Shown: positions 6,898-24,042 of the stretch, in pieces
How positions within the stretch are numbered: the stretch's first letter is position 1
Layout: each line of letters opens with the position of its first letter
DNA from: Thermoplasmatota archaeon
GTDB lineage: Archaea; Thermoplasmatota; Thermoplasmata; Thermoplasmatales; Thermoplasmataceae
Direction of reading: 5' to 3'
Length of the DNA: 43,347 nucleotides
NCBI GenBank assembly: GCA_023484805.1
Contig: JAMDAM010000053.1
Coordinates: forward strand, 1-43,347
Position numbers and translations under genes: made by a program
Notes under the pieces: model-generated
The model's input: the letters and a program-made list of their open reading frames with translations, nothing else
Database searches by the model: none
What the model was told of the DNA's origin: nothing

Positions 6898-7827
6898 TTA
6901 TTCCAGGCCAACTATTCCCAGGGACTTGCTTATCTCCTTGTACCTGTTCCGGATTGTAACTTCAGTGACGCCAGATACCCTTGCAATTTCTTTTTGCGTC
7001 CTTGGTTTTCCGAGCATTACAGATGCTATGTATATCGAAGCAGCTGCAACACCGGTGGGTCCCTTTCCAGAAGAAATTCCAAGCTCTATTGACTTCCTGA
7101 CTATCTCTTCACTTTTTACAATTGCCTGCTTGTCAAGTTCCAGCTTGCTGCAGAATTGCGCTACGTATGAATACGGGGTTGTTGGCTTAAGGTTGAGGCT
7201 CAATTCCTTGGCAAGATGCCTGTAGGCTTTCCCGATCTTTTTCTTGTTGACTTCGGAAGCCTTGGAAATTTCATCCAGCGTCCTTGGAAGATTTACCATC
7301 CGGCAGGCTGCGTATATAGAAGCGCACACGATGCTTTCAATACTTCTCCCTCTGATCAGGTTCTTCTCAACGGCCTTCCTGTAGATGAGTGCTGCCGTCT
7401 CCTTTATGTCCTTGGGAATACCTAGCTTCGCGCCGTTATCGTTAAGCATTTGCAGAGCTAGAGAAAGGTTTCTCTCGGCAGCATTACTTACCCTGATCCT
7501 CTGATGCCATTTTCTGACTCTATAAATCTGGGCTCTATTTTTGTGCGGAATTCTTTTTCCATAATAGTCCTTGTTTGACCACGAAATCTCGGTTGCCAGA
7601 CCCTTATCATGACTCAGGAACGTCATGGGTGATCCGGTTCTTGCCCTTCTGTCATCCTGTTCCGAGTCGAAGGCGCGCCATTCAGGTCCCTGATCAATGA
7701 GGGAATCCTCGATTACCATGCCGCAATCGCTGCATACCAGTTCTCCCCTTTCATAGTCCCTTACAAGGTGCTCGGATTTGCATTCAGGGCACCGTTTCAT
7801 AACTTCTTCACTATTTTTTGTAGCCAT
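6898..7827 (-). CDS. tfb: Transcription initiation factor TFB (copy 1)
   Basis: 309 residues. N-terminal zinc ribbon [24 protein letters not shown] (residues about 13-36), the B-reader/linker with [13 protein letters not shown], then two cyclin folds (about 110-205 and 210-305) ending in a helix-turn-helix ([21 protein letters not shown]) that reads the BRE. TFB bridges TBP on the TATA box and RNA polymerase. It is divergent from a second TFB, separated by the promoter region 7828-8106. Downstream it is followed after 8 nt by guaA. A TTGGTG-like sequence just before the ATG suggests a short leader with ribosome binding site. Which of the two TFBs is the housekeeping factor cannot be told here. 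Confidence 0.95.
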
Positions 7828-8106: not shown

Positions 8107-8367
8107 ATGGATTTAAAATGCGAAATCCTTAACATGAGAGGAAAAGAGGTCACTATCCGGATCAATGATTGCGTGAAAATGAATTCAAAGATATATGATA
8201 AGACAGGCAAGACAATTGGCAAGATAACCAGAATATTTGGTCCAGTATCCTCAGCATATGGTCTCGTCAGCGTTTTTCCAGCCTCAGGTGAGGTGAAAGA
8301 GCTGTACGTAAAGTGTACAGGTGATGCAAATGGTAGAGGAAAAGCAAGAGAAGAGGAAAATAGATGA
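8107..8367 (+). CDS. gar1: H/ACA RNA-protein complex component Gar1
   Basis: 86 residues. The small beta-barrel pattern ([34 protein letters not shown]) is that of Gar1/Naf1: V--...G-I--IFGPV--PY--V. Gar1 binds Cbf5 and helps substrate turnover in H/ACA-guided pseudouridylation. The C-terminal tail is charged ([10 protein letters not shown]). Gar1 next to a TFB gene is a recurrent archaeal arrangement. The downstream tfb start lies inside the last 38 bases of this gene, giving strong translational linkage. The sequence around the usual 'PY' turn reads SAYG, a mild deviation. Confidence 0.85.
8319..8324 (+). promoter_or_regulatory. Ribosome binding site deciding the tfb copy 2 start
   Basis: AGGTGA five bases before the ATG at 8330, inside gar1. 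It favours 8330 over the in-frame GTG at 8321 and ATG at 8324, which overlap the site itself. Confidence 0.55.
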
Positions 8368-9271
8368 AATCACGAAGTGCCCCGAATGCGGTTCCACGCA
8401 ACTGGTAAGAGATTATGAGCGTGGGGAGCTCGTTTGTAATAATTGTGGGATTGTCATAGACGACAGCTATATAGACCAGGGTCCGGAATGGAGGGCATTT
8501 GATTCCGAGCAGAATGATTCCAGGGCCAGGGCAGGGTCCCCTATGACATTCACGATACATGACAAGGGACTCTCGACGGACATATCATGGAAGAACAAAG
8601 ACTCATACGGGAAGTCAATTCCAACCCGTAACAGGGCTCAACTTTACAGACTAAGGAAGTGGCAGAAGAGAATCAAGGTATCCAACGCAGCAGAACGCAA
8701 TCTTTCACAGGCTCTTCAGGAACTTGAGAGGATGGCTTCTAACCTCAGCATTCCGAACGACGTCAGGGAAACGGCGGCCGTGATTTACAGGAAAGCTGTA
8801 AAACAGAACATGATAAGGGGGAGAAGCATCGAAGGAGTAGTTGCAGGTTCCATTTATGCTGCATGCAGGATCACCAATGTACCGAGAACTTTGGAGGAAA
8901 TAGCTTCTGTGACGAGAGTCAAGAAGAAAGAAATTGGCAGGACATACAGGATCATGAGCAGATACCTGAAGCTCAACATAATGCCTTCGAAACCGGATGA
9001 TTACATAAACCGCTTCTGCAGCAGGCTCAAATTGTCCATGGACGCCAGGAAGAAGGCGACAGAAATACTGAAACTTGCCAGGGATAATGACCTGACTTCC
9101 GGAAAAGGCCCAACGGGTGTGGCCGCCGCGGCAATATATATCGCCTCACTTATGACTGGTGAGAGAAGGACGCAGCGGGCAGTGGCCGAAGTGGCCGGCG
9201 TGACAGAAGTAACCATAAGGAACCGGTACAAGGAACTTACAGAGAAGCTTTCAATAACAGTAGAGCAGTGA
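8330..9271 (+). CDS. tfb: Transcription initiation factor TFB (copy 2)
   Basis: 313 residues from ATG 8330. Same plan as copy 1: zinc ribbon [24 protein letters not shown], linker [26 protein letters not shown], two cyclin repeats, and a C-terminal helix-turn-helix [21 protein letters not shown]. By eye the ribbon and linker are nearly the same as in copy 1, whereas the cyclin repeats have diverged more; that pattern suggests an old duplication with selection on the polymerase-contacting part. It is translated from within gar1. The TGA (9269-9271) directly abuts the stop codon of the converging Pcc1-like gene. Confidence 0.95.
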
Positions 9272-9968: not shown

Positions 9969-10640
9969 TCACATCTTTGATTGAGATTTTGCAAAATTTA
10001 TTAGATCAATCAGGGATGTGAATGCATCGCTTGCATCACTTTCCTTTACCACTATTATTGCATCTGTGTAGCTATTTGTTGTCTCTTCAATATTTATTCC
10101 AGTAAAAGCAAGTTTCGAGTACAATGACATCAAGAATCCAGCAGTTTCTAGCAGCGAAACCGGGGCTTTTATAATTATAACCGCTAGGTCTGTCCTTTTG
10201 TCTATTATGCCTCTCCTCAGCATAGTCAATACTGCAGGCAGGTTCCGGTTTTCTATAATAAGGGTTGTAAATTCAGGCCCTGTGGAAATATACAGGGCGC
10301 CGGTAAGCTTAATATCAACCACATTCCTGAAAATTTTCTCATTTTCTTTCACAGGTATTACGACCTTCGCAACGGAGGTTAGAAGCTGAACGCTTGTTTC
10401 GGAGAGGACGCTGAACACTTTCGAATCCGATCGTCTGGATGCTTCGCGATTCCTTTTTAGTGCTGATATCACCGCCTCAATGTTGACCTTTTCACCGAGT
10501 TTTGCCTCTACTACCGGAACTAGGTCTCTTGCGACGGCGCTTAGATTTACGTACCCCTTATTGAGAGAGGTTGCAAGAAAGATATCATTCGTGACAAAAT
10601 TTTTGACTATTTTATTAATACTTAACTCCATTTTAGTCAT
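9969..10640 (-). CDS. ACT-domain protein with N-terminal helical (HTH-like) domain, probable amino-acid regulator
   Basis: 223 residues from ATG at 10638-10640 (ATG 10631 is the alternative). Residues 1-70 are helical with an HTH-like pattern (GYVNLSAVARDLVPVVEAKL...NIEAVISALKRNREA). The rest looks like two ACT-type repeats, the last being ETAGFLMSLYSKLAFTGINIEETTNSYTDAIIVVKE, close to the aspartokinase-type ACT pattern. ACT domains bind amino acids at dimer interfaces. A paralogue with the same order is at 20747-21343. It is divergent from the lysine cluster, and a 7-4-7 inverted repeat lies between its TATA-like sequence and its start. Together this suggests an autoregulated lysine-responsive repressor; DNA binding is inferred, not shown. 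Confidence 0.6.
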   Translation of the reverse strand: MTKMELSINKIVKNFVTNDIFLATSLNKGYVNLSAVARDLVPVVEAKLGEKVNIEAVISALKRNREASRRSDSKVFSVLSETSVQLLTSVAKVVIPVKENEKIFRNVVDIKLTGALYISTGPEFTTLIIENRNLPAVLTMLRRGIIDKRTDLAVIIIKAPVSLLETAGFLMSLYSKLAFTGINIEETTNSYTDAIIVVKESDASDAFTSLIDLINFAKSQSKM

Positions 10641-10652
10641 TTTAACCTAACT

Positions 10653-10670
10653 ATGACCAATTATGGTCAT
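10653..10670. promoter_or_regulatory. Inverted repeat operator candidate ATGACCA-N4-TGGTCAT
   Basis: ATGACCAATTATGGTCAT: perfect 7-bp arms with an ATTA spacer. It is 13 nt upstream of the ACT-regulator ATG, between that start and an AT-rich TATA-like stretch at about 10671-10683, where a bound protein would block initiation. The same half-site pair recurs at 19000-19037 before homocitrate synthase. Confidence 0.6.
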
Positions 10671-10782
10671 AAAGTATTAATAATTTTTCAAAATCGGCGC
10701 AATACAACAAAACAAATCTCATTGAAATACTGCTGCTTAGAACTGGCATTATTCGGGGTTTGTGAATTTGCGAGGGAATGAA

Positions 10783-10956
10783 ATGGATCTAGAATGTACA
10801 ATGTGTGGCGGAAAGGTAGTAGCTCCTGACGATGCCTTAAAAGGTGAGATCGTCAGCTGCGGAGATTGTGGGCTGGATTATGAAATACAGGAAGTAAGCG
10901 CGGGAACTGTTATCCTGAAAGCCGCGGAAAACGTAAAAGAGGACTGGGGAGAATAA
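10783..10956 (+). CDS. lysW: Amino-group carrier protein LysW
   Basis: 57 residues. Zinc-ribbon-like Cys pairs at 5/8 and 26/29 (CTMC, CGDC) and the diagnostic C-terminal EDWGE (53-57). The terminal Glu gamma-carboxyl is joined to alpha-aminoadipate (and in some organisms glutamate), protecting its amino group during conversion to lysine or ornithine. The start is ATG 10783 because GAGGGA sits five bases before it; an upstream GTG (10762) is less likely. It opens the lysine cluster: the next gene starts about 80 nt downstream. The acidic surface typical of LysW is evident (many Asp/Glu). Confidence 0.95.
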   Translation: MDLECTMCGGKVVAPDDALKGEIVSCGDCGLDYEIQEVSAGTVILKAAENVKEDWGE

Positions 10957-11038
10957 TCGATTCCGGCACTTGCATGTCCAAGTCTTTTATCATCAGAAAA
11001 ATGAACCCGACTGTCTTTTTTGAATGGGGTAATGTTAG

Positions 11039-12091
11039 TTGCGGACAGTAGGTATTGTAGGGGCATCTGGATACGTCGGAGGTGAACTGTTACGGCTGCT
11101 TTTGATGCACCCCGATATCCAGGTAAAGGTCGCAACTTCTCAGCAGCATTCCGGTGAGTATGTTTTCAAAGTGCATCCCAACCTCAAGGGGTTGATAGAT
11201 CTGACATTTGCCAACGACACTCCGGAAGAAGCTGCATCGAAGGTGGACATCATTTTCATGGCAGTTCCACACGGTTCATCCATTGAACATGTTCCAAAAA
11301 TATCTGAAATGGGGGTAAGGATCATAGACATGAGCGCAGATTTCAGGTTCAGGAACCCTGCTGACTATCCTGTCTGGTACGGGTGGGAACATCCGGCACC
11401 GGACCTTCTCTCAAAATTTGTCTACGGTATGCCAGAACTTCACAGGGAAGAACTGAAGTCAGCGCATTTTATCTCCGTCCCCGGTTGTATAGCCAGTTCA
11501 TCGATTTACAGCCTTGCACCACTTGCAAAGGCAGGCCTGATAAATGGGGTGGCAGTTGTTGATGCCAAAATAGGTTCGTCTGGATCCGGAAATAAGCCGT
11601 CGATCGCGACTCATTTCTCGGAAAGATACAACTCAGTCAGGATATACAGTCCTTCAGGCCACAGGCATATAGGGGAAATTGAGCAGGAACTCTCCATTGT
11701 TTCCGGGATTAAAACCACAGTTACCATGTCGGCGCACTCGGTCAACATGGTTCGTGGAATTCTGACCACGAGCAGTGTTTTTGTTGACAGAGAGCTGAAA
11801 ATGCCCGATCTGTGGAACGCTTATCGCTCGATGTACGGGAAAGAACCATTTGTGAGGTTCATAATGGATCCCAACGGGCTCTATAAATATCCCGACCCGA
11901 AGCTTGTGGTGGGTTCAAATTTCGTAGATCTCGGGTTCGTCATCGATCAGCACGTGAGGAGGGTTATTGCCCTTGGATCAATAGATAATCTCATAAAAGG
12001 TGCAGCCGGAAATGCGATTCAATCGATGAATGTCATGGAAGGTTTCGATGAGCGGGAAGGGCTAATGATGTCCCCAATGAGATTGGTGTAA
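11039..12091 (+). CDS. lysY: LysW-aminoadipyl-6-phosphate reductase (ArgC-like)
   Basis: 350 residues from TTG at 11039; no in-frame ATG is nearby. NADP-binding GASGYVGGE (8-16), catalytic Cys150 in SVPGCIASS, and the substrate-binding HRHIGEIEQE segment near residue 207. It reduces the LysW-bound acyl phosphate to the semialdehyde. By family it is homologous to ArgC and would also act on LysW-glutamyl phosphate in organisms that make ornithine this way. Position directly between lysW and the kinase gene supports the LysY assignment rather than free acetyl-glutamyl ArgC. Confidence 0.92.
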   Translation: MRTVGIVGASGYVGGELLRLLLMHPDIQVKVATSQQHSGEYVFKVHPNLKGLIDLTFANDTPEEAASKVDIIFMAVPHGSSIEHVPKISEMGVRIIDMSADFRFRNPADYPVWYGWEHPAPDLLSKFVYGMPELHREELKSAHFISVPGCIASSSIYSLAPLAKAGLINGVAVVDAKIGSSGSGNKPSIATHFSERYNSVRIYSPSGHRHIGEIEQELSIVSGIKTTVTMSAHSVNMVRGILTTSSVFVDRELKMPDLWNAYRSMYGKEPFVRFIMDPNGLYKYPDPKLVVGSNFVDLGFVIDQHVRRVIALGSIDNLIKGAAGNAIQSMNVMEGFDEREGLMMSPMRLV

Positions 12092-12094
12092 ATT

Positions 12095-12898
12095 TTGGTA
12101 ACGGTTTTGAAGTTGGGTGGGAGTCTCATGAAGTCTGGCGTCAGGGAAAGCTTGATCAGGGACATTTCAATGCAGAAGGAAGACGATTATATAATTGTCC
12201 ATGGGGGCGGTCCTGCCGTCACTGACCTCTGCAGCAGGCTAAACATGGAAACAAGATTTATTACCTCGCCCGAGGGGATCAGGAGCAGGTACACTGATGC
12301 TGAAACCATGTCAGTATACCTCATGGCCATGCGCGGCAGCATCAATGCGTCAATAGTTCTTGCACTGCAAAGAGCAGGAATGAAATCCTTCGGGATGTCC
12401 GGTATAGATGGACCTACAATTATGGCGGAGAGAAAAAAAAGGCTCATAACAATAAACGAGAAAGGAAGGAGAATGTTTATCGATGGAGGCTACACGGGAA
12501 AGATACTGTCTGTGGATGGAAGCCTCATAGAATATCTGCTTTCAGAAAAAATGACTCCCGTCATTGCCCCTATAGCAGTCGGGCTTGAGCATGAGCCTCT
12601 AAACGTAGATGGGGACAGAGCCGCATCAGCGATTGCTGGGGGACTAAAAGCCAGTCGAATGATCCTGCTGACGGATGTTGATGGTATAATGTTCAATGGT
12701 AAAATAGTAGAGAAACTGGACCTTGCACATGCCAGGGAAATGCTGAAGTTGGTAGGGAACGGCATGGACAAAAAGATCATGGCGGCAATTGAATCCATAG
12801 AGGCAGGGACTTCTGAGGTAATTATTGCTAACGGAAACGTGGAAATGCCAATATCAGGTGCAATAAATTCGAAACAAAGGACAGTGATCACGAAATGA
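12095..12898 (+). CDS. lysZ: LysW-aminoadipate kinase (ArgB-like)
   Basis: 267 residues from TTG at 12095, three bases after the lysY stop. Amino-acid kinase fold: KLGGS at 6-10, HGGGPAV near 36-42, the MSGIDG segment, and the ATP-binding LLTDVDGIM around 187-195. It phosphorylates the side-chain carboxylate of LysW-bound alpha-aminoadipate. The R-S-RYTD region (RSRYTDAETMSVY) follows the LysZ/ArgB pattern. Its TGA overlaps the ATG of the aminotransferase gene (ATGA at 12895-12898). Confidence 0.93.
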   Translation: MVTVLKLGGSLMKSGVRESLIRDISMQKEDDYIIVHGGGPAVTDLCSRLNMETRFITSPEGIRSRYTDAETMSVYLMAMRGSINASIVLALQRAGMKSFGMSGIDGPTIMAERKKRLITINEKGRRMFIDGGYTGKILSVDGSLIEYLLSEKMTPVIAPIAVGLEHEPLNVDGDRAASAIAGGLKASRMILLTDVDGIMFNGKIVEKLDLAHAREMLKLVGNGMDKKIMAAIESIEAGTSEVIIANGNVEMPISGAINSKQRTVITK

Positions 12899-14091
12899 TG
12901 AAAAACACATTTACGGAAGAGGTCGAAGATCGTTATCTTGCCGGAACATATCAGAAAATACCCGTGGTGGCTGCTAGAGCCAGGGGAACAAAAATATGGG
13001 ATATGAATGGAAAGGAATATCTTGATTTCATGAGCGGCTATGGCGTTGCTATTTTCGGACACTCAAACGACGCAATAAGAGAAGCAATCAAGAGGCAACT
13101 GGATGAAATATACATAACACACACATCAGTTTACAGTCCTGCGCGGGCGAGATTTCTTGGGGAACTGATGAAAGTAACGCCAACCGGGCTGAACATGGCC
13201 TATCTTTCAAATAGCGGGGCGGAAGCCATAGAAGCTGCCTTAAAAATTGCCGTGAAATCCACTAAGAGAAAAAAAATCATAAGCATGGAGAAGGCCTATC
13301 ACGGAAAAACAATGGGCGCCTTGTCGATAACTCATTCAGCAAAATACAGGAAATCTTTTGAAAATATGCTGATCCCGGGAGTTGAATTTGTGAAATTCGG
13401 GGATTATGAGGGTGTTCTCGCGCTGTTGAAAAAAGAGGATGTTGCTGCTGTTTTCATGGAACCAATTCAGGGTGAAGGCGGGATAAACCTTCCGGATCCT
13501 CAATTTCTGGCATCTGTCAGGGAGGCAACATCCAGCTATGGTACCCTCCTTGTTATGGATGAAATCCAGTCCGGATTGGGGAGAACAGGAAAGATGTGGG
13601 CGCATGAAAACTGGGGGGTAGCTCCAGATGTGATGACCATAGGAAAAGGCATAGGGGGCGGCATACCAATGGGAGTCACTGTGGGAAAAAAGGAGTTCGT
13701 GGAAACTCTTGAAATTGGAGAGCAGAGTTCCACGACCGGAGGAAATCCACTATCTTGTGCCGCTGGAGAGGTCGTCATAAGAGAGCTAAGAAATGGAATC
13801 ATGAGACAGGCAGGCGAAATGGGAAAATACGTACTTCAGAGAATGAAGGAGGAAACCGATTCACATAGGCTGGTATCACAGTCCAGGGGAATTGGAATGA
13901 TGCTTGCGATGGAACTCAGGGTAAGGTTCGTTCCAGTACTCATGGATATGATCAGCCGGGGCCTCATTACGCTTTACTCTGGAATAAACACAATTAGGAT
14001 GCTACCTCCATACACTGTATCCAGGGAAGAGGTCGATAGGGCAATTGACATAATGAAAGCTGCACTGGATCATCATCTCAAGAATCAATGA
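12895..14091 (+). CDS. lysJ: LysW-lysine aminotransferase (class III)
   Basis: 398 residues, beginning in the ATGA overlap with lysZ (a second ATG follows immediately at 12898). PLP fold type I, class III: GAEA near 108-111 for phosphate binding, YHGKTMGALS (135-144), Asp222 in MDEIQSGLGRTG and the PLP lysine Lys251 in TIGKGIGGG. It transfers the amino group from glutamate to LysW-aminoadipate semialdehyde; homologues also serve as acetylornithine aminotransferase. As the only such gene in the cluster it could serve both the lysine and ornithine branches. Confidence 0.93.
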   Translation: MMKNTFTEEVEDRYLAGTYQKIPVVAARARGTKIWDMNGKEYLDFMSGYGVAIFGHSNDAIREAIKRQLDEIYITHTSVYSPARARFLGELMKVTPTGLNMAYLSNSGAEAIEAALKIAVKSTKRKKIISMEKAYHGKTMGALSITHSAKYRKSFENMLIPGVEFVKFGDYEGVLALLKKEDVAAVFMEPIQGEGGINLPDPQFLASVREATSSYGTLLVMDEIQSGLGRTGKMWAHENWGVAPDVMTIGKGIGGGIPMGVTVGKKEFVETLEIGEQSSTTGGNPLSCAAGEVVIRELRNGIMRQAGEMGKYVLQRMKEETDSHRLVSQSRGIGMMLAMELRVRFVPVLMDMISRGLITLYSGINTIRMLPPYTVSREEVDRAIDIMKAALDHHLKNQ

Positions 14092-14105
14092 AGGACTGAT
14101 CGAAA

Positions 14106-14954
14106 ATGAAAATCTCAATGATATATGACACAGTCAGGTGGGAAGAAAAGGCAATTTTTAAAGCCGCTGAACAGAAGGGAATAGAACTGAAGATGATTGA
14201 CGTCAAAGAGATGGATATGGATTTCGATAAACCCGTCCCTGATTATTATGGTAACGTAACCCTGCAACGATGCACATCATATTATCGCGGACTTCATTCA
14301 ACAGCTTTCCTCGAATATAAGAAGCAAAAGGTTGTAAATGATCTCATGACTATAATCAATGCTGGAAACAAGATGCTAACTTCACTTGCTCTCGTCGCCA
14401 GCGGCGTACCATCACCTTTAACATCAGTTTCAACCAGTTACGAGGTTGCCATGAAACAGTTTTCAGAAAAATTTCATGGCAGGGCGGTTCTTAAACCAGT
14501 AACAGGAAGTTGGGGGAGAATGATCGCGCTCATGAATGATCCAGAGGCTGCGATGGCCATTCTTGAGGACAGGGAATACATGTATCCGTTATATTCAATT
14601 TTCTATATGCAGGAATATGTTAAAAGGCCTCCAAGAGACATAAGAACATTCGTCATAGGCGAAAGGGTTGTAGGCGGAATATACAGATACCAGCCTGAAG
14701 GAGACTGGAGGACGAACGCTGCCATAGGCGGTAGGGCCGAAAAATGTGAAATTACGCCGGAGATCGAGGACATTTCCATTAAAGCCGCAAAAAGCGTTGG
14801 AAAAGGAATATTCGGAATCGACATAATGGAATCGGAGAGAGGTTATCTGGTACATGAGGTGAACAGCACTACTGAGTTTAAAAACACGGTAAGAGTTTCC
14901 CAGGTCGATATACCGGGCGAAATACTAAATTATCTTGTGGAGGTAGCAAGGTGA
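14106..14954 (+). CDS. lysX: LysW-aminoadipate ligase (ATP-grasp)
   Basis: 282 residues. RimK-like ATP-grasp: AVLKPVTGSWGRMI (about 126-139) for the nucleotide loop, MQEYVKRPPRDIRTFVIG for the central part, and the metal-binding GIDIMES...LVHEVNSTTEFKN near the C-terminus. It joins LysW's terminal Glu to the amino group of alpha-aminoadipate. Archaea that also make ornithine on LysW usually have a second homologue, ArgX, for glutamate; only one is in this window. LysX is assigned from the homoaconitate-branch genes in the same operon. The TGA overlaps the GTG start of lysK. Confidence 0.92.
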   Translation: MKISMIYDTVRWEEKAIFKAAEQKGIELKMIDVKEMDMDFDKPVPDYYGNVTLQRCTSYYRGLHSTAFLEYKKQKVVNDLMTIINAGNKMLTSLALVASGVPSPLTSVSTSYEVAMKQFSEKFHGRAVLKPVTGSWGRMIALMNDPEAAMAILEDREYMYPLYSIFYMQEYVKRPPRDIRTFVIGERVVGGIYRYQPEGDWRTNAAIGGRAEKCEITPEIEDISIKAAKSVGKGIFGIDIMESERGYLVHEVNSTTEFKNTVRVSQVDIPGEILNYLVEVAR

Positions 14955-16030
14955 TTGATGACATCGGAAAAACCCTAGTTCATCTTGTGAAGACGTACTC
15001 GCCCACTGGAAAGGAGAAGCAAGCTGTTTCCATATTCAACTCATATCTTAAGAAATCAGGTGCAGCCGAAATCGGTACCGACAATGCCGGAAATGGATTC
15101 GGGATATTCGACGGAGAGGGGCTGTCCGTAATCCTCTGCGGGCACATAGATACTGTGCCGGGAAAACTCAGGGTTATGGTTAAAGACGGCATCTTATATG
15201 GAAGGGGTGCGGTGGATGCAAAGTCCTCACTGGTTTCCCTTCTTTATGGCGCAAGCATAGCAAAGGAGTCAGGGTTCAAAGGGTCATTGAAGGTAATTGC
15301 TGCAATAGGGGAAGAGGGTCCAGGGAAGGGAATACTTGAGGTCATAAGAACACAAACGAAGAGCGATTATGCAATATTCGGTGAACCGAGTGATGTCAAC
15401 GGCATCACTGTTGGGTACAGGGGCAGGTTGTTGATAGATGTGGCGTTCCAAACAGAACCTTTCCACGCGAGTGCTCCGTGGATGGGGGGGAACGCGGTGG
15501 ATGCTGCCATATTAGCATGGTCTAGAATACGAGACCTTTATTCCGGAAACACGGAGTTTTCAAAAGTATCCGCCGCATTGACAGGTATCCGAGGAGGGGA
15601 ATCTGACAACATCACGCCTTCAAAGTCAAGAATCACGCTCGATTTCAGGTTTCCACCATTGGTCGACAGGAACAATATTCTGAAAGAAGTGACTGGAATA
15701 TGTGACTCACTTAATCTTCCAGTGCCTGCAAAAATAAAAGTAAGAAGTGAGGTAAAACCATATATATCCAGCACGAAAAGTCCTCTGGCTATGGCATTCC
15801 GTTCCGCAGTAAGCCAGAAAACAGGATCAAGTGCCAAGCTTGTGTTCAAAAGCGGCAGCGGTGACATGAACATACTTGGGAATTCGTGGAATATACCAGC
15901 TGTAACCTATGGTCCCGGCGACACCAAGCTTTCACACACAAACAGTGAGCGCATAAAACTTGAAGACGTTGAGAAAAGCGCAGAAATAGTTTCGGATGCC
16001 CTGATTCTGCTGGAAAGGGAATTGCAGTGA
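14951..16030 (+). CDS. lysK: LysW-lysine hydrolase (M20 family)
   Basis: 359 residues from GTG at 14951, in a GTGA overlap with lysX. Zinc peptidase M20 fold: His65 and Asp67 in CGHIDTVPG, bridging Asp89 in GRGAVDAK, the Glu121-Glu122 pair in AIGEEGPGKG, and a late His in TKLSHTNSE. It releases lysine (or ornithine) from LysW at the end of the pathway. The dimerisation domain lies between about residues 165 and 280. It is the last of the tightly coupled carrier-protein genes; about 80 nt separate it from the homoaconitase subunits. Confidence 0.92.
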   Translation: MIDDIGKTLVHLVKTYSPTGKEKQAVSIFNSYLKKSGAAEIGTDNAGNGFGIFDGEGLSVILCGHIDTVPGKLRVMVKDGILYGRGAVDAKSSLVSLLYGASIAKESGFKGSLKVIAAIGEEGPGKGILEVIRTQTKSDYAIFGEPSDVNGITVGYRGRLLIDVAFQTEPFHASAPWMGGNAVDAAILAWSRIRDLYSGNTEFSKVSAALTGIRGGESDNITPSKSRITLDFRFPPLVDRNNILKEVTGICDSLNLPVPAKIKVRSEVKPYISSTKSPLAMAFRSAVSQKTGSSAKLVFKSGSGDMNILGNSWNIPAVTYGPGDTKLSHTNSERIKLEDVEKSAEIVSDALILLERELQ

Positions 16031-16108
16031 GTGTTCCAGGGTTTAGTGCAACCCGCCCTAATATTCCGCTATCACTGTATTGCAGAATAGATGGATCTTC
16101 ATTGGTGG

Positions 16109-17392
16109 ATGGTGGCAAATCTCTTGAACATGATTGAGAAAATATTGCTGGCGCATTCTGATTCAGATACTAAGACGGTAAGCCCGGGCGACATTGTCAA
16201 TGTGTCAGTTGACAGAGTCATGTTGCTGGATATAGCAGGGTTACATCCGGAGCTAATTAACAATCCGCCAAAGGAAGCATTTGATAGGTCCAAACTTGCA
16301 ATAATATTTGATCATTTTGCGCCTGCCCCAAACATAGAGATGGCAATAGGCACATCCAAGATACGTAAATTGGCGCATAAACTTGGAGTTAATGATTTCT
16401 ACGACTACGGGAGAGCGGGGATATCGCATGCCTTTGCCGCTGAGAGAGGATGGTTACTGCCAGGAAGGATTATAGCCAATACAGACTCTCACTCCATAGC
16501 TGCCGGTGCCTATAATATGCTGAGTAGAGGACTTGGGACACCGGAGTTGTTGCAGGTAATATGTACCGGAAGAACATGGTTCATTGTCGGGGAAACTGTT
16601 AACATAGAGCTGAACGGATCGATGCAGTCACCTACTGAGTCAAAGGACGTATTTCTCAAATTGGCTGGAGAAATAGGGGACTTGCCGAATGAGAACATCG
16701 AATTTTCTGGGGAGGGCATAGGACAGATGACGATGGACCAGAGATCGGTGGTATCTACCATGTGTGCCGAATTAAGCGTTGAATTTGCTATTTTTCCTTA
16801 CGACAAGGTTTTGAAGAGTTACCTTAAAAACAGGGCAGAGTCCTATTTTCGCCCGGTCCGCCCGGACGAGCATACAGAGTATTCAAGATATTACAGCTTC
16901 GACATGCGAGACATACCGCCAATGGTTGCCCTTCCAGATTCTGTATCAAGGAACACAAAACCAGTATCCGAGTTAGGCAACATTCCAGTGGATCAGTGCG
17001 TAATCGGATCCTGTGCGAACGGCAGGATCGAGGACCTAGAATCCGCTGCAAGAATATTGAAAGGAAGGAAGGTGCATCGTGATACAAGACTTATCGTTAC
17101 ACCTGCAACCCCTGAAATCTACAGGAATGCTGAAAGGCTTGGATATATCGGAGAGATAATCGATGCTGGGGGCATGGTCACAAACCCAACATGCGGATCA
17201 TGCATGGGAGGGCATATGGGAATACTGGCTGATGGCGAGACTGCAATAACATCAACAACACGAAATTTCAGGGGGCGAATGGGGTCCAGGGAAGCAAAAA
17301 TCTACATGGCGTCTTCCGCCACCGTTGCCGCATCAGCCATAAAAGGATATGTAGCAGATCCATCCGAATTCCTCGGCGGTGCTTTCTCTTGA
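16109..17392 (+). CDS. lysT: Homoaconitase large subunit (LeuC/LysT family)
   Basis: 427 residues from ATG 16109; ATG 16091 and 16130 are alternatives, and 16109 leaves the normal short lead before IEKILLAHS. The [4Fe-4S] ligands are Cys302 (GSCANGR), Cys362 and Cys365 (NPTCGSCMGG), numbered from 16109. Other aconitase-family signatures are DHFAPAPN, TDSHS and the terminal RNFRGRMGS. LeuC and homoaconitase are close relatives; homocitrate synthase and lysW in the same cluster argue for homocitrate to homoisocitrate. Dual use for isopropylmalate is possible. Its stop overlaps the small-subunit start (TTGA). Confidence 0.88.
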   Translation: MVANLLNMIEKILLAHSDSDTKTVSPGDIVNVSVDRVMLLDIAGLHPELINNPPKEAFDRSKLAIIFDHFAPAPNIEMAIGTSKIRKLAHKLGVNDFYDYGRAGISHAFAAERGWLLPGRIIANTDSHSIAAGAYNMLSRGLGTPELLQVICTGRTWFIVGETVNIELNGSMQSPTESKDVFLKLAGEIGDLPNENIEFSGEGIGQMTMDQRSVVSTMCAELSVEFAIFPYDKVLKSYLKNRAESYFRPVRPDEHTEYSRYYSFDMRDIPPMVALPDSVSRNTKPVSELGNIPVDQCVIGSCANGRIEDLESAARILKGRKVHRDTRLIVTPATPEIYRNAERLGYIGEIIDAGGMVTNPTCGSCMGGHMGILADGETAITSTTRNFRGRMGSREAKIYMASSATVAASAIKGYVADPSEFLGGAFS

Positions 17393-17898
17393 AAAGAGTC
17401 ATAACCGGAAGGGCATGGGTATTCGGAGACAATATCAACACAGATCTCATGTATCCTCACATTTGTTACACGCTGCCGGAAGGTGAGAGGCCGAAGTATA
17501 CTATGTGGGCCAACAGGCCCGGATGGCCGGAAATTGTATCGAGAGGCGATATTCTCGTGGCCGGGAAGAATTTTGGCCTCGGATCATCAAGGCCAGCTGC
17601 TTCAAACCTTCTCGGGGTTGGTATTTCAGCAGTAATTGCGGAGAGCCTGAATGGTTTGTTCCTTAGAAACGCTGTTAATGTTGGGCTTCCGGCAGTCTCA
17701 TCCCAAGTTATCAGATCGATGGTAACGGAAGGAGACCTGATAGAAATAGATCTCACAGAAGGCAATTTCAGGAACTTAAGCACGGGAGGAAGCGTTGCAT
17801 TCAGGTCACTTCCGGAATTCCTGATGGATGTCATAGATGCTGGAGGAATAATAGAGATACTGAAAAGAAGCGGCTGCCTAGATACCGAGGCACTGTAA
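17389..17898 (+). CDS. lysU: Homoaconitase small subunit (LeuD/LysU family)
   Basis: 169 residues from TTG 17389 in a four-base overlap with the large subunit. Swivelling-domain signatures: GRAWVFGDNINTDLMYP and GKNFGLGSSRPAASNLLGVGISAVIAESL. The GSSR carries the Ser/Arg that position the substrate carboxylate; the residues after it are PAA where most LeuD proteins have EHA or EQA, which is unusual. The loop between MYP and the GSSR motif, which reads substrate length, is YTLPEGERPKYTM. With the large subunit it forms the heterodimeric hydro-lyase. Confidence 0.87.
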   Translation: MKRVITGRAWVFGDNINTDLMYPHICYTLPEGERPKYTMWANRPGWPEIVSRGDILVAGKNFGLGSSRPAASNLLGVGISAVIAESLNGLFLRNAVNVGLPAVSSQVIRSMVTEGDLIEIDLTEGNFRNLSTGGSVAFRSLPEFLMDVIDAGGIIEILKRSGCLDTEAL

Positions 17899-17915
17899 AA
17901 TTCAAGGTGAAAATG

Positions 17916-18974
17916 ATGAAGGATGTATATACAATAGCCGTGGGAAAGGGAGACGGTATAGGTCCGGAGGTTGTAGAATCAGCACTGAAAGCAGTACAAA
18001 GCGTAACTGATTCGCAAGGGCTGAAGGGATTATTGAATTTCAGGAACGTCGATATTGGTTGGACATCATACTACATGCATGGATCTCCCCTCACAGACGA
18101 AACATTGAATGTAGTATCCAGTTGCGACTGTATGATTTTAGGGCCTTTGGAAGTTGGAGAGTATCCCGGCGCGAACAGAAGTCCTTCCGGCATTATCCGC
18201 AGGAAATTTGACCTTTATGCCAATGTCAGGCCTGTCAAATCTTACATTCCTACGAACCAGAAGCCGATTGACATTGTGATAGTGCGGGAAAACACCGAAG
18301 GGTTCTATGCGGACAGGAATATGTACCAGGGTTCCGGTGAATATATGCCAACCAATGACCTTGCCCTGGCAGTTAGGGTAATAACAAGACACAAAAGTGC
18401 AAAGATCAGCGAGGCTGCCATGAGAATAGCACTGAACAGAAGAAAAATCGTAACTGCGGTGCACAAGGGAAATGTGCTGAAGATGAGCGACGGGCTTTTC
18501 AGGGAAGAATTCTACAACCAAGCAAAAAAATTTCCGGACATAACTGCCGGGGACAGGCTCATAGATTCTACTGCATATGACCTGATCATAAATCCGGGCA
18601 TGTTTGACGTCATTGTTACAACCAATATGTATGGAGATATTCTGTCAGACGAGGCGGCCGCCATAGGAGGAAGCCTAGGAATCGCACCTGCTTTGAATCA
18701 TGGGGACGAGTGGGCCATGGCCCAGGCTGCGCATGGCACGGCCCCAAACATCGCAGGAAAGGGGATCGCCAACCCCATATCTGAAATCATGTCCACCGGC
18801 ATGCTCTTGAATTGGCTTGGAAACAGATATACAGATGAACGGCTCATAAACGTAGGGAAAAAGATAAATGACTCAGTGGAACACACTTTAAAAAATACGT
18901 ACGATCTGACTCCGGACCTTGGCGGGAACGGAGATACAAAAAAGGTGACAGACTCCATCATTTCTGCGCTTTAG
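17916..18974 (+). CDS. Homoisocitrate dehydrogenase
   Basis: 352 residues from ATG 17916; AAGGTGA at 17904-17910 is placed correctly for this ATG, with GTG 17907 and ATG 17913 as alternatives. Beta-decarboxylating dehydrogenase: GDGIGPEV near the N-terminus, RRKFDLYANVRPVKSY with the substrate arginines, VRENTEGFY, the catalytic Lys in AVHKGNVLK, and the metal-binding NMYGDILSDEAA. It oxidises homoisocitrate to 2-oxoadipate with NAD(P). IPMDH and isocitrate dehydrogenase are relatives; the assignment rests on the neighbouring homocitrate pathway genes and the RRKFDLYANVRP segment shared with homoisocitrate dehydrogenases. Confidence 0.85.
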   Translation: MKDVYTIAVGKGDGIGPEVVESALKAVQSVTDSQGLKGLLNFRNVDIGWTSYYMHGSPLTDETLNVVSSCDCMILGPLEVGEYPGANRSPSGIIRRKFDLYANVRPVKSYIPTNQKPIDIVIVRENTEGFYADRNMYQGSGEYMPTNDLALAVRVITRHKSAKISEAAMRIALNRRKIVTAVHKGNVLKMSDGLFREEFYNQAKKFPDITAGDRLIDSTAYDLIINPGMFDVIVTTNMYGDILSDEAAAIGGSLGIAPALNHGDEWAMAQAAHGTAPNIAGKGIANPISEIMSTGMLLNWLGNRYTDERLINVGKKINDSVEHTLKNTYDLTPDLGGNGDTKKVTDSIISAL

Positions 18975-18999
18975 GCATAATAATAAGTAATTGTCGTAA

Positions 19000-19037
19000 A
19001 TGACCAATATGTTTATATTTTGCCCAATATTGGTCAT
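19000..19037. promoter_or_regulatory. Inverted repeat operator candidate before homocitrate synthase
   Basis: ATGACCAATAT (19000-19010) and its exact complement ATATTGGTCAT (19027-19037), 16 nt apart, flanking GTTTATATTTTG. The right arm is immediately followed by a TATA-like TATTATATAATAG (19041-19053). The core ATGACCA/TGGTCAT is the same as at 10653-10670 before the ACT-domain regulator gene. Confidence 0.6.
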
Positions 19038-19073
19038 ACGTATTATATAATAGACCCAAGTAACATCGAAATA

Positions 19074-20261
19074 ATGGAAACAAAAATCAGTGCAGGCATT
19101 CTTGATTCAACGTTAAGGGAGGGTGAACAGACACCAGGTGTAGTTTTTACACCGGACCAAAGGGTTGAAATCGCAAGGAAATTGTCGGATATCGGAATAA
19201 AAATGATTGAGGTAGGTCATCCTGCCGTTTCGCCTGACGTTCTTGAAGGCATTAAAAGGATAACGAGGCTGAAAAAAGACGGATACATAACTTCCGAAAT
19301 AGTAGCACACAGCAGAGCAGTAAGCAGTGACATAACGCTGGCAGCCTCCCTTGAGATAGACAGAATGGCGATATTTTACGGGATAAGCGACACGCATCTC
19401 ACTTCCAAAACGCACAAGTCCCGGGAAGACGCAATGTCAATAATAGGAGAGTCTGTTGCAGAAGCAAAATCTCATGGACTTAAGGTAAGGTTCACTCCGG
19501 AAGATGCTTCAAGAACCGATTACAATTATCTGATAGAAGTCATAAAAACTGCAAGAGATGCGGGGGCAGACCGTATCGGCATTGCAGATACCGTAGGAAT
19601 AATGAACCCCCTAAGGACAAAGGACCTCTTCCTGCATATAAGGAGAGATGTACCAGGTATTGAATTGGATATTCATGCCCATAATGACATGGGAAACGCT
19701 GTCGCAAACTCCCTTTCGGCCATAGAAGGAGGTGCCACGATAGTTCATTCAACGATCAACGGACTTGGAGAGAGGGTTGGAATCACGCCAACTCAGATCA
19801 TAGCAGTTGCAATGAAGTTTCATTTCGGAATAGAAGCGGCTAAACTGGACAAACTCGGGGAACTGTCTCGCTTGGTTGAAGTCCATAGCGGAATTCGCAT
19901 GCCTCCTAATTTTCCAATTACTGGTGAATACGCTTTCGTTCACAAGTCAGGTGTGCACGTTTCTGGAATCCTCGGGAACCCTGCCACATATGAATTCATG
20001 GATCCGCGTTCATTAAGCGTGACAAGGAGTTATACCATTGACAAATATAGTGGAAAACACGCTCTGCAATCAAAATTGACGAGCTTGGGCATTAACCTAA
20101 CAGACAGTGAGGTCGTGGCAGTCCTCTCACAGATCAAGAATAGCCCTGACACGAGATACTTTGACAACGCTAAACTCCAGGAAATTGCTGGCTATGTCTC
20201 AAGTAGCAGGCAGGCAACTGTATATCGGGAAATATTGAAAGATCCACCTAATCAAATGTAA
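19074..20261 (+). CDS. lysS: Homocitrate synthase
   Basis: 395 residues from ATG 19074, placed about 26 nt after the TATA-like box at 19041-19053; an upstream in-frame TTG at 19020 lies within the operator and is rejected. DRE-TIM metallolyase: GILDSTLREGEQTPGV at the start, the metal-binding HAHND (DIHAHNDMGNA), and STINGLGERVGI. The segment FGISDTHLTSKTHKSREDA is like homocitrate synthases. It condenses acetyl-CoA with 2-oxoglutarate, the entry step of lysine synthesis, and is usually lysine-inhibited. No separate C-terminal leucine-binding LeuA regulatory domain is present. It has its own promoter with an operator shared with the regulator gene. Confidence 0.88.
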   Translation: METKISAGILDSTLREGEQTPGVVFTPDQRVEIARKLSDIGIKMIEVGHPAVSPDVLEGIKRITRLKKDGYITSEIVAHSRAVSSDITLAASLEIDRMAIFYGISDTHLTSKTHKSREDAMSIIGESVAEAKSHGLKVRFTPEDASRTDYNYLIEVIKTARDAGADRIGIADTVGIMNPLRTKDLFLHIRRDVPGIELDIHAHNDMGNAVANSLSAIEGGATIVHSTINGLGERVGITPTQIIAVAMKFHFGIEAAKLDKLGELSRLVEVHSGIRMPPNFPITGEYAFVHKSGVHVSGILGNPATYEFMDPRSLSVTRSYTIDKYSGKHALQSKLTSLGINLTDSEVVAVLSQIKNSPDTRYFDNAKLQEIAGYVSSSRQATVYREILKDPPNQM

Positions 20262-20746: not shown

Positions 20747-21343
20747 TTATGTCATTGTCAAAATTTCGTAAGCAAGCGTGGAGTCCTTCTTATTCAGTAT
20801 TATTATTGTTTCATTGGAACATGAGATGAGTTGGAGGATATTGACACCACGCGCAAAGAGCTTGTGTGTTATTCGCATCACAAAACCAGGCGTCTTTTCT
20901 ATCTCCCTCGATGAGAATATATGGATCATGCTGACATCCCTGTCGACTATAACACTCTGGGAGATCTGCGGTATTTTGCTTTTTATCTCGTCTACAATAT
21001 ATACAATGTTATCCTGGAGATACGTTGCGGATATGTATTTCATTGTCTGAGGAATTTTTGACGTTACAACGCATATCTTGTCTTGCAACGAGATTTTACT
21101 CTTCTTTAGAAGGTCGTCAGCCTTGCTTTTCCCTGTTTCACCATCTCCTTTGATCTTAAATCTGTTCAATGCCGCTCTCACAGATATGGGATTGAGGTCG
21201 TCATTCTCCTTCAATATGAGCTGCGCCAGTTTACTGACATTGATCACGCCAACTCTCAATGAAAGCATATAGTCAGGGTTTTCCGTGAGGAATCTTGCAA
21301 CCCTGCTTTCAACCGTGACCTTCTCGTTAACATTTTTTTTCAT
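20747..21343 (-). CDS. ACT-domain protein with N-terminal HTH-like domain (paralogue)
   Basis: 198 residues. It follows the same plan as the protein at 9969-10640: a helical N-terminal region (VGVINVSKLAQLILKENDDLNPISVRAALNRFKIKG), a first degenerate ACT-like repeat, and a clear second ACT domain at the C-terminus (TPGFVMRITHKLFARGVNILQLISCSNETIIILNKKD). It is divergent from argG across 115 nt of AT-rich promoter sequence. The likely role is an amino-acid-sensing regulator, plausibly of arginine genes; DNA binding is inferred from the helical domain and position. A TATA-like TTAAAATATACAT (reverse strand, about 21363-21375) fits a leaderless start. Confidence 0.6.
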   Translation of the reverse strand: MKKNVNEKVTVESRVARFLTENPDYMLSLRVGVINVSKLAQLILKENDDLNPISVRAALNRFKIKGDGETGKSKADDLLKKSKISLQDKICVVTSKIPQTMKYISATYLQDNIVYIVDEIKSKIPQISQSVIVDRDVSMIHIFSSREIEKTPGFVMRITHKLFARGVNILQLISCSNETIIILNKKDSTLAYEILTMT

Positions 21344-21381
21344 TAAATCGACATAATGTATGTATATTTTAACATTGTTTA

Positions 21382-21394
21382 TGATTGTAAATCA
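21382..21394. promoter_or_regulatory. Palindrome TGATT-GTA-AATCA in the regulator/argG promoter region
   Basis: Perfect 5-bp arms with a 3-nt centre. It contains GTAAATCA, which recurs at 21445-21452 between the argG TATA-like box and ATG. TAACATT also occurs as a direct repeat on either side (21370-21376 and 21399-21405). Candidate binding sites for the adjacent ACT-domain regulator. Confidence 0.4.
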
Positions 21395-21429
21395 ATTATA
21401 ACATTAAGAATGATATAATATTTAACTAA

Positions 21430-21458
21430 TTTAATATGCTAATGGTAAATCACTATTA
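21430..21458 (+). promoter_or_regulatory. argG promoter with second GTAAATCA site
   Basis: TATA-like TTTAATAT at 21430-21437 lies about 25 nt before the argG ATG (21459), consistent with leaderless transcription. An imperfect inverted repeat TAATGGT-AAATC-ACTATTA (21440-21458) containing GTAAATCA fills the space up to the start codon, a position suited to repression. Confidence 0.45.
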
Positions 21459-22676
21459 ATGAAGGAAAAGGCACTTCTGTTGTATTCGGGCGGTCTAGAC
21501 ACTTCGGTGATGATAAAATGGTTACAGGAACAACTGAATCTTGACGTCGTAACGCTAACCCTCGATGTTGGGCAGGAAAAAAACGACTTGCAGCGGATAG
21601 CAGAAAAGGCAAAAAAACTTGGAGCTGTGAAGACAATTACGGAAGACGTTACAAAGAAGTTTTCCGATGATTTCGTGGCACACGGGATAATGAACGACGG
21701 GCTGTACCAGGATAAATACCCACTCTCTACGAGCCTTGCAAGGCCTCTAATGTCAATGGAGGCGGTGAAATTTGCAGAACAAAACAAATGCACCACAGTT
21801 GTTCACGGCTCAACAGGAAAAGGCAACGATCAGGTAAGGTTCGAAGTTTCCATAAAGGCGCTGAATGAAAATCTTACAGTGATTGCACCAGTCAGGGAAA
21901 TGAACATGAACAGGGACGAGGAAATAGAGTATGCCAAATTGAGGAATATAGAGATACCCTATGGAGGGAAATATTCTGTAGACGAGAATTTGTGGGGCAG
22001 GTCAGTTGAAGGTTCAAGCATGGAATTCATAGACGAAGGAGTTCCAGAAGACGCATACAGGTGGGTTCTACCCGTTGAAAAATCAGGGGATAAGCCGGAA
22101 GTTGTATCTATTACATTCAATGGAGGACTGCCAGTTGAACTCAACGGTAAGCCAATGCTGCTCAGGGACATAATTGCTGAATTGAACTATAAAGCAGGTC
22201 AGAGTGGAGTTGGGGCGATTGACATGATAGAGGACAGGGTTGTAGGCATAAAGAGTCACGAATTCTATGAATGCCCGGCCGCTATCACAATTATAAGCGG
22301 ACACAAATATCTCGAGTCCCTTGTTTTGAACAAGAAGGAAAGCCAGTTGAAAAAGGTCATGGATCAGCAGTTTGCAGATATGGTTTATAGTGGATTGTGG
22401 TTTGATCCTGCTATGGACCACATAAAGAGGTTCCAGCAAAGCATAAATGGGGTTGTAAACGGAACGGTCAAACTCAAGTTATACAAAGGGAATGTTATTC
22501 CGATGGGCGTTGATAGCACAAACTCGCTTTATGATATATTTATGTCTACGTATGGGAAGAACCAGACCTTTGACCAGAGCAAAGCCCCAGGTTTCATTTA
22601 CGTTTTCGGGAGCCAGACAATTACAACAAGGAAGGTAAGGAAGAAACAGTTCGGTGAAATAATTATTGAAGAGTGA
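21459..22676 (+). CDS. argG: Argininosuccinate synthase
   Basis: 405 residues. PP-loop nucleotide-binding motif LLYSGGLDTSVM at 7-18, the citrulline/aspartate-binding HGSTGKGNDQVRFE near 114-127, and YSVDENLWGRSVEGS near 172-186. It joins citrulline and aspartate in an ATP-dependent reaction. Length and motifs are normal. The start is the first ATG after a TATA-like box, suggesting leaderless transcription. argH follows four bases after the stop, forming the argGH operon divergent from an ACT-domain regulator gene. No ornithine transcarbamylase gene is in the window. Confidence 0.96.
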   Translation: MKEKALLLYSGGLDTSVMIKWLQEQLNLDVVTLTLDVGQEKNDLQRIAEKAKKLGAVKTITEDVTKKFSDDFVAHGIMNDGLYQDKYPLSTSLARPLMSMEAVKFAEQNKCTTVVHGSTGKGNDQVRFEVSIKALNENLTVIAPVREMNMNRDEEIEYAKLRNIEIPYGGKYSVDENLWGRSVEGSSMEFIDEGVPEDAYRWVLPVEKSGDKPEVVSITFNGGLPVELNGKPMLLRDIIAELNYKAGQSGVGAIDMIEDRVVGIKSHEFYECPAAITIISGHKYLESLVLNKKESQLKKVMDQQFADMVYSGLWFDPAMDHIKRFQQSINGVVNGTVKLKLYKGNVIPMGVDSTNSLYDIFMSTYGKNQTFDQSKAPGFIYVFGSQTITTRKVRKKQFGEIIIEE

Positions 22677-22680
22677 AGCA

Positions 22681-24042
22681 ATGACAAAGATATGGAGTGG
22701 TGGAGTATCAGAAGAAGCGGGTAAGGATCTTTCCGACATCATGACAGTTGAGGATGCGCAGATCGACTCCATGCTCTTGGACTACGAAATAGTTTCTCTT
22801 CTTGCTTACCAGTTACAATTAAGAAAAGAAGCCATCATTTCTACAGAAGATAGCGATGCAATACTTTCAGGACTCTTGCGTTTGCTTGGGAATAAAGTAA
22901 CAATAGATCCAGCTATTGAAGATGTGCATGGGTTTGTAGAAGAGTACATGAAGGGTAATGGTGGTGATGCATACAAGAATCTCCGCATATTTCTTTCAAG
23001 GAACGAGCAGAGCCACACAGACATAAAGTCATTCTACATTGACCATCTTCTCAAAATTTCACAATATCTCACGACCCTTTCAGAGACTATGATGACTCGC
23101 AAAGGAGATTTCAGTGGGGCGATGCCAGGTTACACTCACAACCTCCAGGCAATGCCAGTTATGATTTCCACATATTTTGACTATTTCTCCAGGATATTCT
23201 TAGATATGTCGCTCGATGCTCTCGATATGTCTGAAAAATTTTCAGTTATTTCACCACTTGGTTACGGTTCCGGATTTGGCTCTCTTTCACCAATAGATTT
23301 CAAGATCGTGGCCAAAAGTCTAGGTTTCAAGTCCAACGCACAAAATCCAATGGCTGGAAGTTTTTACCGTGGCATCGACGATCTGGACGTATCGACACTC
23401 ATTCTGAAAATAATGATCTTTTTATCTAAAATATCTCAGGATTTCATAGGTTTTAGTGCAGGGGATTCGGCATTCATAATAATGCCGGATGGGTTTTCTA
23501 CCGGCAGCTCACTGATGCCAAACAAGAGGAACCCAGACTTTCTGGAAATGGTTCAAGGTTACGCCTCCGAATCCATAGGGCACTGTGTTTCAACTGCCAC
23601 GATCCTGATGAATAAAGGATCTGGTTATCACAGAGAATTCCAGACATCAAAGGACAAAACCATCGAATTTGTTATCTTATGCGAGAAGATTCTCAATCAC
23701 TTTCAAGATTTCATGCTGGAATTCAAGCTCGACGAGAAAAAGGCTATGGATTCAATGAAAAACTCCATAAATGCAACTGCGGAGGCATTCTCAATCTTTC
23801 AAGCTGGAAAGTCTTGGAAGGATTCATATGCTGTGGTAGGTGAGAAGATAAGGAAAGATATACCTCTAGATTATCACAAACCGCCTGAATTCGCTTCTGT
23901 CAAAAGTCAAGAAATTTTGTACGCAAAGGAGAAAAGAATGAAACTTTTAAATTCATGGCGGACGCCAAGGGAAGATGTGCTACTCCGTGCCAAAGATATA
24001 ATAAAAAACAAATCACCTGCCGAGAAAATTCTGAAGGATTGA
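22681..24042 (+). CDS. argH: Argininosuccinate lyase
   Basis: 453 residues from ATG 22681; the upstream TTG at 22666 overlaps argG and is less likely. Fumarase/aspartase superfamily: KIWSGGVSEEAGK at the N-terminus, EDVHGFVEEYM, the HTDIKSF segment near residue 116, MPGYTHNLQAMPV, and the signature GSSLMPNKRNPDFLEMV (about 279-295). It cleaves argininosuccinate to arginine and fumarate. The usual signature GSSIMPQKKNPD is slightly altered (MPNKRNPD), as seen in some archaeal lyases. GAGTGA before the start may act as ribosome binding site. Confidence 0.95.
   Translation: MTKIWSGGVSEEAGKDLSDIMTVEDAQIDSMLLDYEIVSLLAYQLQLRKEAIISTEDSDAILSGLLRLLGNKVTIDPAIEDVHGFVEEYMKGNGGDAYKNLRIFLSRNEQSHTDIKSFYIDHLLKISQYLTTLSETMMTRKGDFSGAMPGYTHNLQAMPVMISTYFDYFSRIFLDMSLDALDMSEKFSVISPLGYGSGFGSLSPIDFKIVAKSLGFKSNAQNPMAGSFYRGIDDLDVSTLILKIMIFLSKISQDFIGFSAGDSAFIIMPDGFSTGSSLMPNKRNPDFLEMVQGYASESIGHCVSTATILMNKGSGYHREFQTSKDKTIEFVILCEKILNHFQDFMLEFKLDEKKAMDSMKNSINATAEAFSIFQAGKSWKDSYAVVGEKIRKDIPLDYHKPPEFASVKSQEILYAKEKRMKLLNSWRTPREDVLLRAKDIIKNKSPAEKILKD

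Follow-up and report, generated by a model that had tools for sequence, protein, structure and literature searches.

Few archaeal regulators of amino-acid metabolism have known operators, and the one described for lysine, LysM of Sulfolobus solfataricus, is of the Lrp/AsnC type. It controls a LysW-type lysine operon from a site just upstream of the transcription factor B recognition element (BRE) and TATA box, presumably in response to lysine (PMC2995911). In Methanothermobacter thermautotrophicus, the gene of the repressor TrpY is autoregulated and divergent from a biosynthetic operon, with the operator in the common intergenic region (PMC6737238). Tar (TK0271) of Thermococcus kodakarensis is an activator serving aromatic amino acids; several promoters of one pathway carry its palindrome, TGGACA-N8-TGTCCA, ahead of BRE/TATA (PMC6737238). 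The present analysis concerns a contig of 43,347 nucleotides from a Thermoplasmatota archaeon (JAMDAM010000053.1), of an acid-loving group that has received little study; the contig is referred to as a whole as the window. A gene for a putative regulator with ACT domains, designated ACT1, is there divergent from the lysine gene lysW, and an inverted repeat is present both between these two genes and in the promoter of lysS, the homocitrate synthase gene. As judged from sequence comparison, the ACT1-palindrome system is very likely a new control switch of the lysine pathway, unrelated to the known archaeal one.

The resemblance to LysM lies in the type of operon controlled, the location of the site just upstream of BRE/TATA and the presumed response to lysine; unlike LysM, ACT1 matches only ACT models, has a palindrome of its own and is encoded by a divergent, probably autoregulated gene. 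The gene arrangement recalls TrpY, with a different operator context and no match of ACT1 to the TrpY model. Tar is likened to ACT1 by promoter features and not by protein family, and the two palindromes differ. A local amino-acid regulator with a divergent autoregulated gene is therefore an already known kind of system, and what is new is the regulator family, the operator sequence, the target set and the lineage.

Probable operator sites in the lysine cluster

The operator unit, as defined by comparison with relatives, is an 18-bp palindrome, ATGACC-N6-GGTCAT. Site 1 is a perfect copy, ATGACCAATTATGGTCAT, at 10653-10670, between ACT1 (9969-10640, minus strand, 223 aa) and lysW (10783-10956, plus strand; NF041070, E 5e-24, over cut-off), which encodes the amino-group carrier protein and heads a lysWYZJXK run. 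At a distance of 4 bp lies a self-complementary TATA-like box, TATTAATA (10675-10682), which could serve lysW on the plus strand and ACT1 on the minus strand; its ATTAATA is near-invariant in relatives and the 4-bp spacing is retained. All TATA and BRE positions were read from the sequence alone. An earlier note on this DNA had correctly placed site 1 at the ACT gene. Since the site lies between two divergent genes, however, it can also serve lysW, a target which that note missed, together with the tandem half-site at lysS, the paralogue ACT2 at argG and the joint lysine/arginine cluster described below.

Site 2 has its core, TTGCCCAATATTGGTCAT, at 19020-19037, in the promoter of lysS (19074-20261, plus strand; TIGR02146 LysS, E 3e-144, over cut-off). 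It departs from the palindrome at two half-site positions, is spaced by N6 like site 1, and is followed after 3 bp by a TATA-like box, TATTATATAATA (19041-19052, plus strand), retained in the related genomes G076 and G039. The lysS start probably lies near 19074, which would make the transcript near-leaderless. An accessory half-site, ATGACCA (ATGACCAATAT..., 19000-19017), begins exactly 20 bp before the core. The lysS genes of G076 and G039, each 95% identical to that of the window, display perfect 18-mers at the place of the core (ATGACCAATTCTGGTCAT and ATGACCAAAATAGGTCAT) with a half-site likewise 20 bp upstream, and the accessory half-site is found in the lysS promoters of G000, G076, G039 and G109. 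The stretch 19000-19037 had been described as a single repeat with an N16 spacer: the letters are present as described, but the comparison indicates that they are better taken as a core palindrome plus an upstream half-site.

Both inverted repeats lie where the earlier note had reported them, and the pattern ATGACCA-N0-30-TGGTCAT is found twice in the window versus 0.01 expected, with at least two copies in none of 100 shuffles. No third copy was detected anywhere in the 1,094,620-base draft genome (about 71% complete), in which the backwards-pattern control also gave 0 matches. An exact 7-nt inverted-repeat half-site common to both promoter stretches, with a spacer of up to 30 bp allowed, arose in 2 of 5000 first-order shuffles.

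Putative regulator and operator in related genomes

The ACT1 gene is divergent from lysW in eight genomes (G000, G109, G104, G105, G082, G087, G088 and G096). Adding three copies of a relative designated ACT1b (G104, G105 and G107) gives 11 lysW promoters with an ACT1-clade neighbour. Each of the 11 has the half-sites of the palindrome, mismatched at 0-3 positions, and a spacing of exactly 4 bp to the TATA-like box. The palindrome also precedes the TATA box by 3-6 bp, again with 0-3 mismatches, in seven of eight lysS promoters (G000, G076, G039, G109, G104, G107 and G082), with core variants TTGACCAGTATTGGTCAA in G104 and G107 and CTGACCGAAATAGGTCAC in G082. The conservation upstream of orthologues which the earlier note had proposed to look for was thus found. 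The half-sites persist across genera while the spacers vary, the pattern expected of a protein operator. With at most two mismatches, the motif is present in 10/11 lysW promoters adjoining an ACT1-clade gene versus 0/17 in genomes lacking such a gene beside lysW, a contrast of about 6 versus 6 at the genus level as many of the ACT1-less genomes are closely related to each other. The corresponding figures for lysS promoters are 6/8 versus 0/9 in genomes without ACT1 beside lysW; the eight include G076 and G039, which lie on short contigs and were counted irrespective of ACT1. A degenerate copy with 3 mismatches occupies the correct place in G093, near a contig edge.

ACT1b adjoins, divergently, a second lysW and a second lysX (probably argW and argX) and has its own copy of the palindrome, ATGAACCATATAGGTCAT, in G104, G105 and G107 (L052:2743-4636, L054:9561-11442 and L058:6975-8867). 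Regulator, operator and target thus seem, from their arrangement, to have been duplicated as one unit.

A natural experiment is provided by G047. This genome retains lysWYZJXK, argGH and ACT2 at 75-89% identity; lysS, lysT, lysU and the dehydrogenase gene are missing from the cluster, and no close lysS match was found anywhere in the genome. The DNA from lysW to the next gene aligns with that of the window (75% over 344 bp), and within it ACT1 is a pseudogene whose start is readable (MVRIEIFINKTVRNLVTSDTIIATF...) before stops interrupt it. The operator has decayed in place to AAGACTAATTATGGCAAT, with both half-sites mutated. Lysine synthesis, regulator and operator were thus lost together while the arginine branch was kept, which ties the regulator to the operator. 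In the same genome, a TTTATATA-like box, new since the loss of ACT1, lies downstream of the original TATA in the lysW promoter (L110:13953-14141); such a box would fit, weakly, compensation for a lost activator.

The regulator-operator-target link between ACT1, the palindrome and the lysine cluster, as suggested in the earlier note, is thus probable, because the motif is conserved beside ACT1, absent where ACT1 is not beside lysW and decayed beside the pseudogene.

Other copies of the motif, perfect or near-perfect, were rejected as members of the regulon. Those on G000 contigs C13, C21 and C29 lie inside open frames or have no counterpart in the promoters of the orthologues of nine relatives. 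In G105 (C4, L161:1501-1518), a ribonucleotide reductase gene is preceded by a perfect ATGACC-N6-GGTCAT, which is unconserved at orthologous promoters and probably due to chance, and a core copy upstream of another reductase gene in G109 (C4), similarly unconserved, was treated as chance. Separately, contig L144 (G039 C23) was assigned to the bin of a genome from a different family (f5), yet it is 95-99% identical to the lys cluster of the window; it was likely mis-binned, if not recently transferred.

The ACT1 protein and its gene neighbourhood

ACT1 comprises a helical N-terminal domain (residues 8-80) and two ACT-like domains (residues 83-141 and 147-222). Its match to PF13840 ACT_7 (E 7e-5, 23 bits) is just under the gathering score of 27 bits; ACT1b reaches 32.5 bits, and at E up to 0.1 the model matches every one of the 32 aligned relatives. 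No match to DUF7523 (PF24367, gathering score 27 bits) was obtained for ACT1; 20 of the 32 aligned relatives match this model at E up to 0.1, and several generic paralogues are over the cut-off. ACT1 thus shares its overall build and alignable sequence with the DUF7523 and generic ACT_7 proteins of Thermoplasmata, and differs from them in lacking a DUF7523 match and in forming its own lysW-linked clade. Searches of Pfam and NCBIfam returned ACT models only, with no AsnC/Lrp-type helix-turn-helix or RAM ligand domain, in line with the earlier suggestion that the regulator is distinct from the Lrp-family LysM. The TrpY_fam model (NF053754) does not match ACT1 either, the best singly scanned relative scoring 12.9 bits versus a cut-off of 180.

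The AlphaFold2 model of ACT1, built with 32 homologues, has a mean predicted local distance difference test (pLDDT) score of 86.8 and displays tandem beta-alpha-beta-beta-alpha-beta units in an aspartokinase-like arrangement, which bears out the ACT domains proposed in the earlier note. The top Foldseek matches are regulatory domains of aspartokinases, some of them from entries solved with lysine. Aspartokinase regulatory domains, which are also top profile matches, share the tandem ACT fold with ACT1, and several such enzymes are lysine-sensitive; unlike them, ACT1 has no kinase domain and carries the helical N-domain instead, in which a helix-turn-helix, the fold supposed in the earlier note, would be plausible.

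In the phylogenetic tree, for which the program warned of long branches, ACT1 proteins form a clade with a support of 100/99 that includes ACT1b next to the ACT1 of G082, and ACT2 forms a separate clade with a support of 100/100. A profile search of genome contigs with the closer alignment matched four named uncultured Thermoplasmata and nothing in viral contigs. No characterised member of the ACT1 family was found, nor did the literature search retrieve a paper naming DUF7523. COG2150, possibly the same family, has been described as an ACT-domain protein predicted to regulate amino-acid metabolism. In the literature found, a single paper names it, and only as a Euryarchaeota-specific protein.

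Downstream of lysW, the plus strand carries lysY, lysZ, lysJ, lysX and lysK (11039-16030), of the carrier pathway common to lysine and arginine, followed by lysT and lysU, for the homoaconitase subunits, and a homoisocitrate-type dehydrogenase gene (16133-18974). The genes we take to be lysJ, lysK, lysT and lysU were named from sequence and gene order. A single lysX was detected in the draft genome. After lysS come ACT2, argG and argH (20747-24042) and then carAB; with argGH and carAB adjoining the lys genes, lysine and arginine genes are interleaved. ACT2 (20747-21343, minus strand), an ACT1 paralogue with a sub-threshold match to PF13840, is divergent from argG and was not assigned to the ACT1 operator. 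The ACT2/argG promoter contains a different imperfect palindrome, TTATGATTG-TAAAT-CAATTATAA (21379-21401), within an intergenic block well conserved in G109, G039 and G047; it is a possible candidate for an ACT2 operator of the arginine branch. Two further features adjoin the cluster: two genes for transcription factor B (TFB, TFIIB-like; 6898-7827 and 8321-9271) stand on opposite strands about 0.5 kb apart, just upstream of ACT1, and a saccharopine-dehydrogenase-like protein (PF16653, 24284-25327) is encoded next to the lysine/arginine genes despite lysine synthesis by the LysW route.

Proposed mode of control and competing explanations

The palindrome lies just upstream of TATA at lysW (4 bp) and lysS (3-6 bp); for the ACT1 promoter, the same site 1 is downstream, between the shared TATA and the start codon. 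Ptr2, LysM and Tar, which are archaeal activators, occupy sites immediately before BRE/TATA, palindromic in the case of Tar, whereas LrpA of Pyrococcus furiosus binds just past the TATA box of its own gene and represses it (PMC2995911, PMC6737238). Autorepression combined with activation of lysW and lysS is predicted from these positions. A dimer of ACT1 would bind ATGACC-N6-GGTCAT through its helical N-terminal domain. Directly upstream of BRE/TATA at lysW and lysS, it would most likely help recruit TATA-binding protein (TBP) and TFB under lysine shortage, and at lysS a second dimer would be favoured by the accessory half-site. In the ACT1 promoter, the dimer bound between TATA and the start site would block RNA polymerase. 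With lysine in its two ACT domains, ACT1 would bind DNA less well or differently, and the expression of lysWYZJXK and lysS would drop. Gene context points to lysine as the putative ligand, which is favoured because the second site is at lysS and because of the pattern of loss in G047. The earlier proposal of an autoregulated repressor holds in part: autorepression is likely by analogy with LrpA, but plain repression at lysW and lysS finds no support in a site 3-6 bp upstream of TATA, which rather favours activation.

The sign of control at lysW and lysS nevertheless leaves room for both outcomes, promoter geometry putting activation slightly above an even chance and repression slightly below. 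Repression, the earlier note's model, is a credible if clearly less probable alternative: ACT1 would then repress all three promoters in a lysine-dependent manner, its lysine-bound form covering the upstream BRE edge at lysW and lysS as well as its own start region. In favour of this, the palindrome, 3-6 bp from TATA, runs into the final bases of the putative BRE, and from one common intergenic region TrpY shuts down its own gene as well as the divergent trp operon (PMC6737238). Against it, the site always precedes TATA at lysW and lysS, and the accessory half-site is more distant still, the arrangement known from characterised activators of archaea (PMC2995911). A weak further argument is that the box gained in G047 arose on the downstream side of the old TATA where ACT1 had been lost. 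An ACT1 that senses chiefly arginine, or lysine and arginine together, to regulate the common LysW pathway is possible, though rather unlikely: argG, argH, carA and carB adjoin the lysine genes, G087 and G088 have ACT1 and lysWYZJXK-argGH with no close lysS, and a sister family adjoins argG in G036/G037. The second site of the window is nevertheless at the lysine-specific lysS, argG has ACT2 and no ACT1 site, and it is the lysine-specific genes that G047 lost along with ACT1 while the arginine branch was kept.

Several observations weigh against the lysine switch proposed here. The isolated N-domain model is all-helical with a moderate pLDDT of 74.7, and its fold search gave no solved-structure match at E below 1. 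The short core TGACC-N6-GGTCA is hardly enriched: over ten genomes it gave 26 matches, and its reversed form, the control, 19; as read from the sequences, the operator signal rests on position and conservation and not on short-core rarity. The lysS site of G109 is weak (3 mismatches), that of G096 is absent, and the lysS-bearing genomes g2, g4 and g13 of the same family have no ACT1. In G087, G088 and G105, ACT1 occurs but no close lysS does, and in these lineages its signal may be arginine or both amino acids. The predicted nature of DNA binding by ACT1, whose N-domain has no confident DNA-binding match, leaves it improbable but conceivable that the palindrome belongs to another, unlinked regulator such as an Lrp/feast-famine regulatory protein (FFRP), with ACT1 as a bystander or metabolic ACT protein; Thermoplasma does possess a lysine-binding FFRP, TvFL3 (PMC2995911). 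The presence of the motif, however, tracks ACT1 and not the lys genes: ACT1-less lysW and lysS promoters are without it, it decays beside the ACT1 pseudogene, and the duplicated ACT1b has its own copy. That the repeats are due to chance, to an ordinary feature of promoters or to an RNA element is a very remote possibility. AT-rich promoters and a short core common in genomes would allow for it, but the shuffle tests, the half-sites conserved across genera with varying spacers and their absence from ACT1-less lysW promoters all argue to the contrary. No Rfam family except tRNA was found in the window, and the sites, being upstream of the lysW and lysS TATA boxes, would be outside the lysW and lysS transcripts, which counts against an RNA element.

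The lysine switch built on ACT1 can tentatively be extended to an undescribed family of archaeal regulators, combining an unclassified helical DNA-binding domain with aspartokinase-like tandem ACT domains, that may have radiated in Thermoplasmatales by duplication. ACT1 would serve lysine, ACT1b the second lysW/lysX branch (probably ArgW/ArgX, for arginine) and ACT2 argG; the one palindrome of ACT1 beside a self-complementary TATA box would switch a bidirectional promoter, with lysW on and its own gene off. The analysis provides a probable operator, regulator and three-promoter regulon, together with a natural gene-loss control, for proteins whose annotation stops at ACT domain or DUF7523. Two questions become testable as a result: what the N-domain of DUF7523-like ACT proteins targets, and whether an archaeal regulator activates or represses according to where its site lies relative to a common TATA box.

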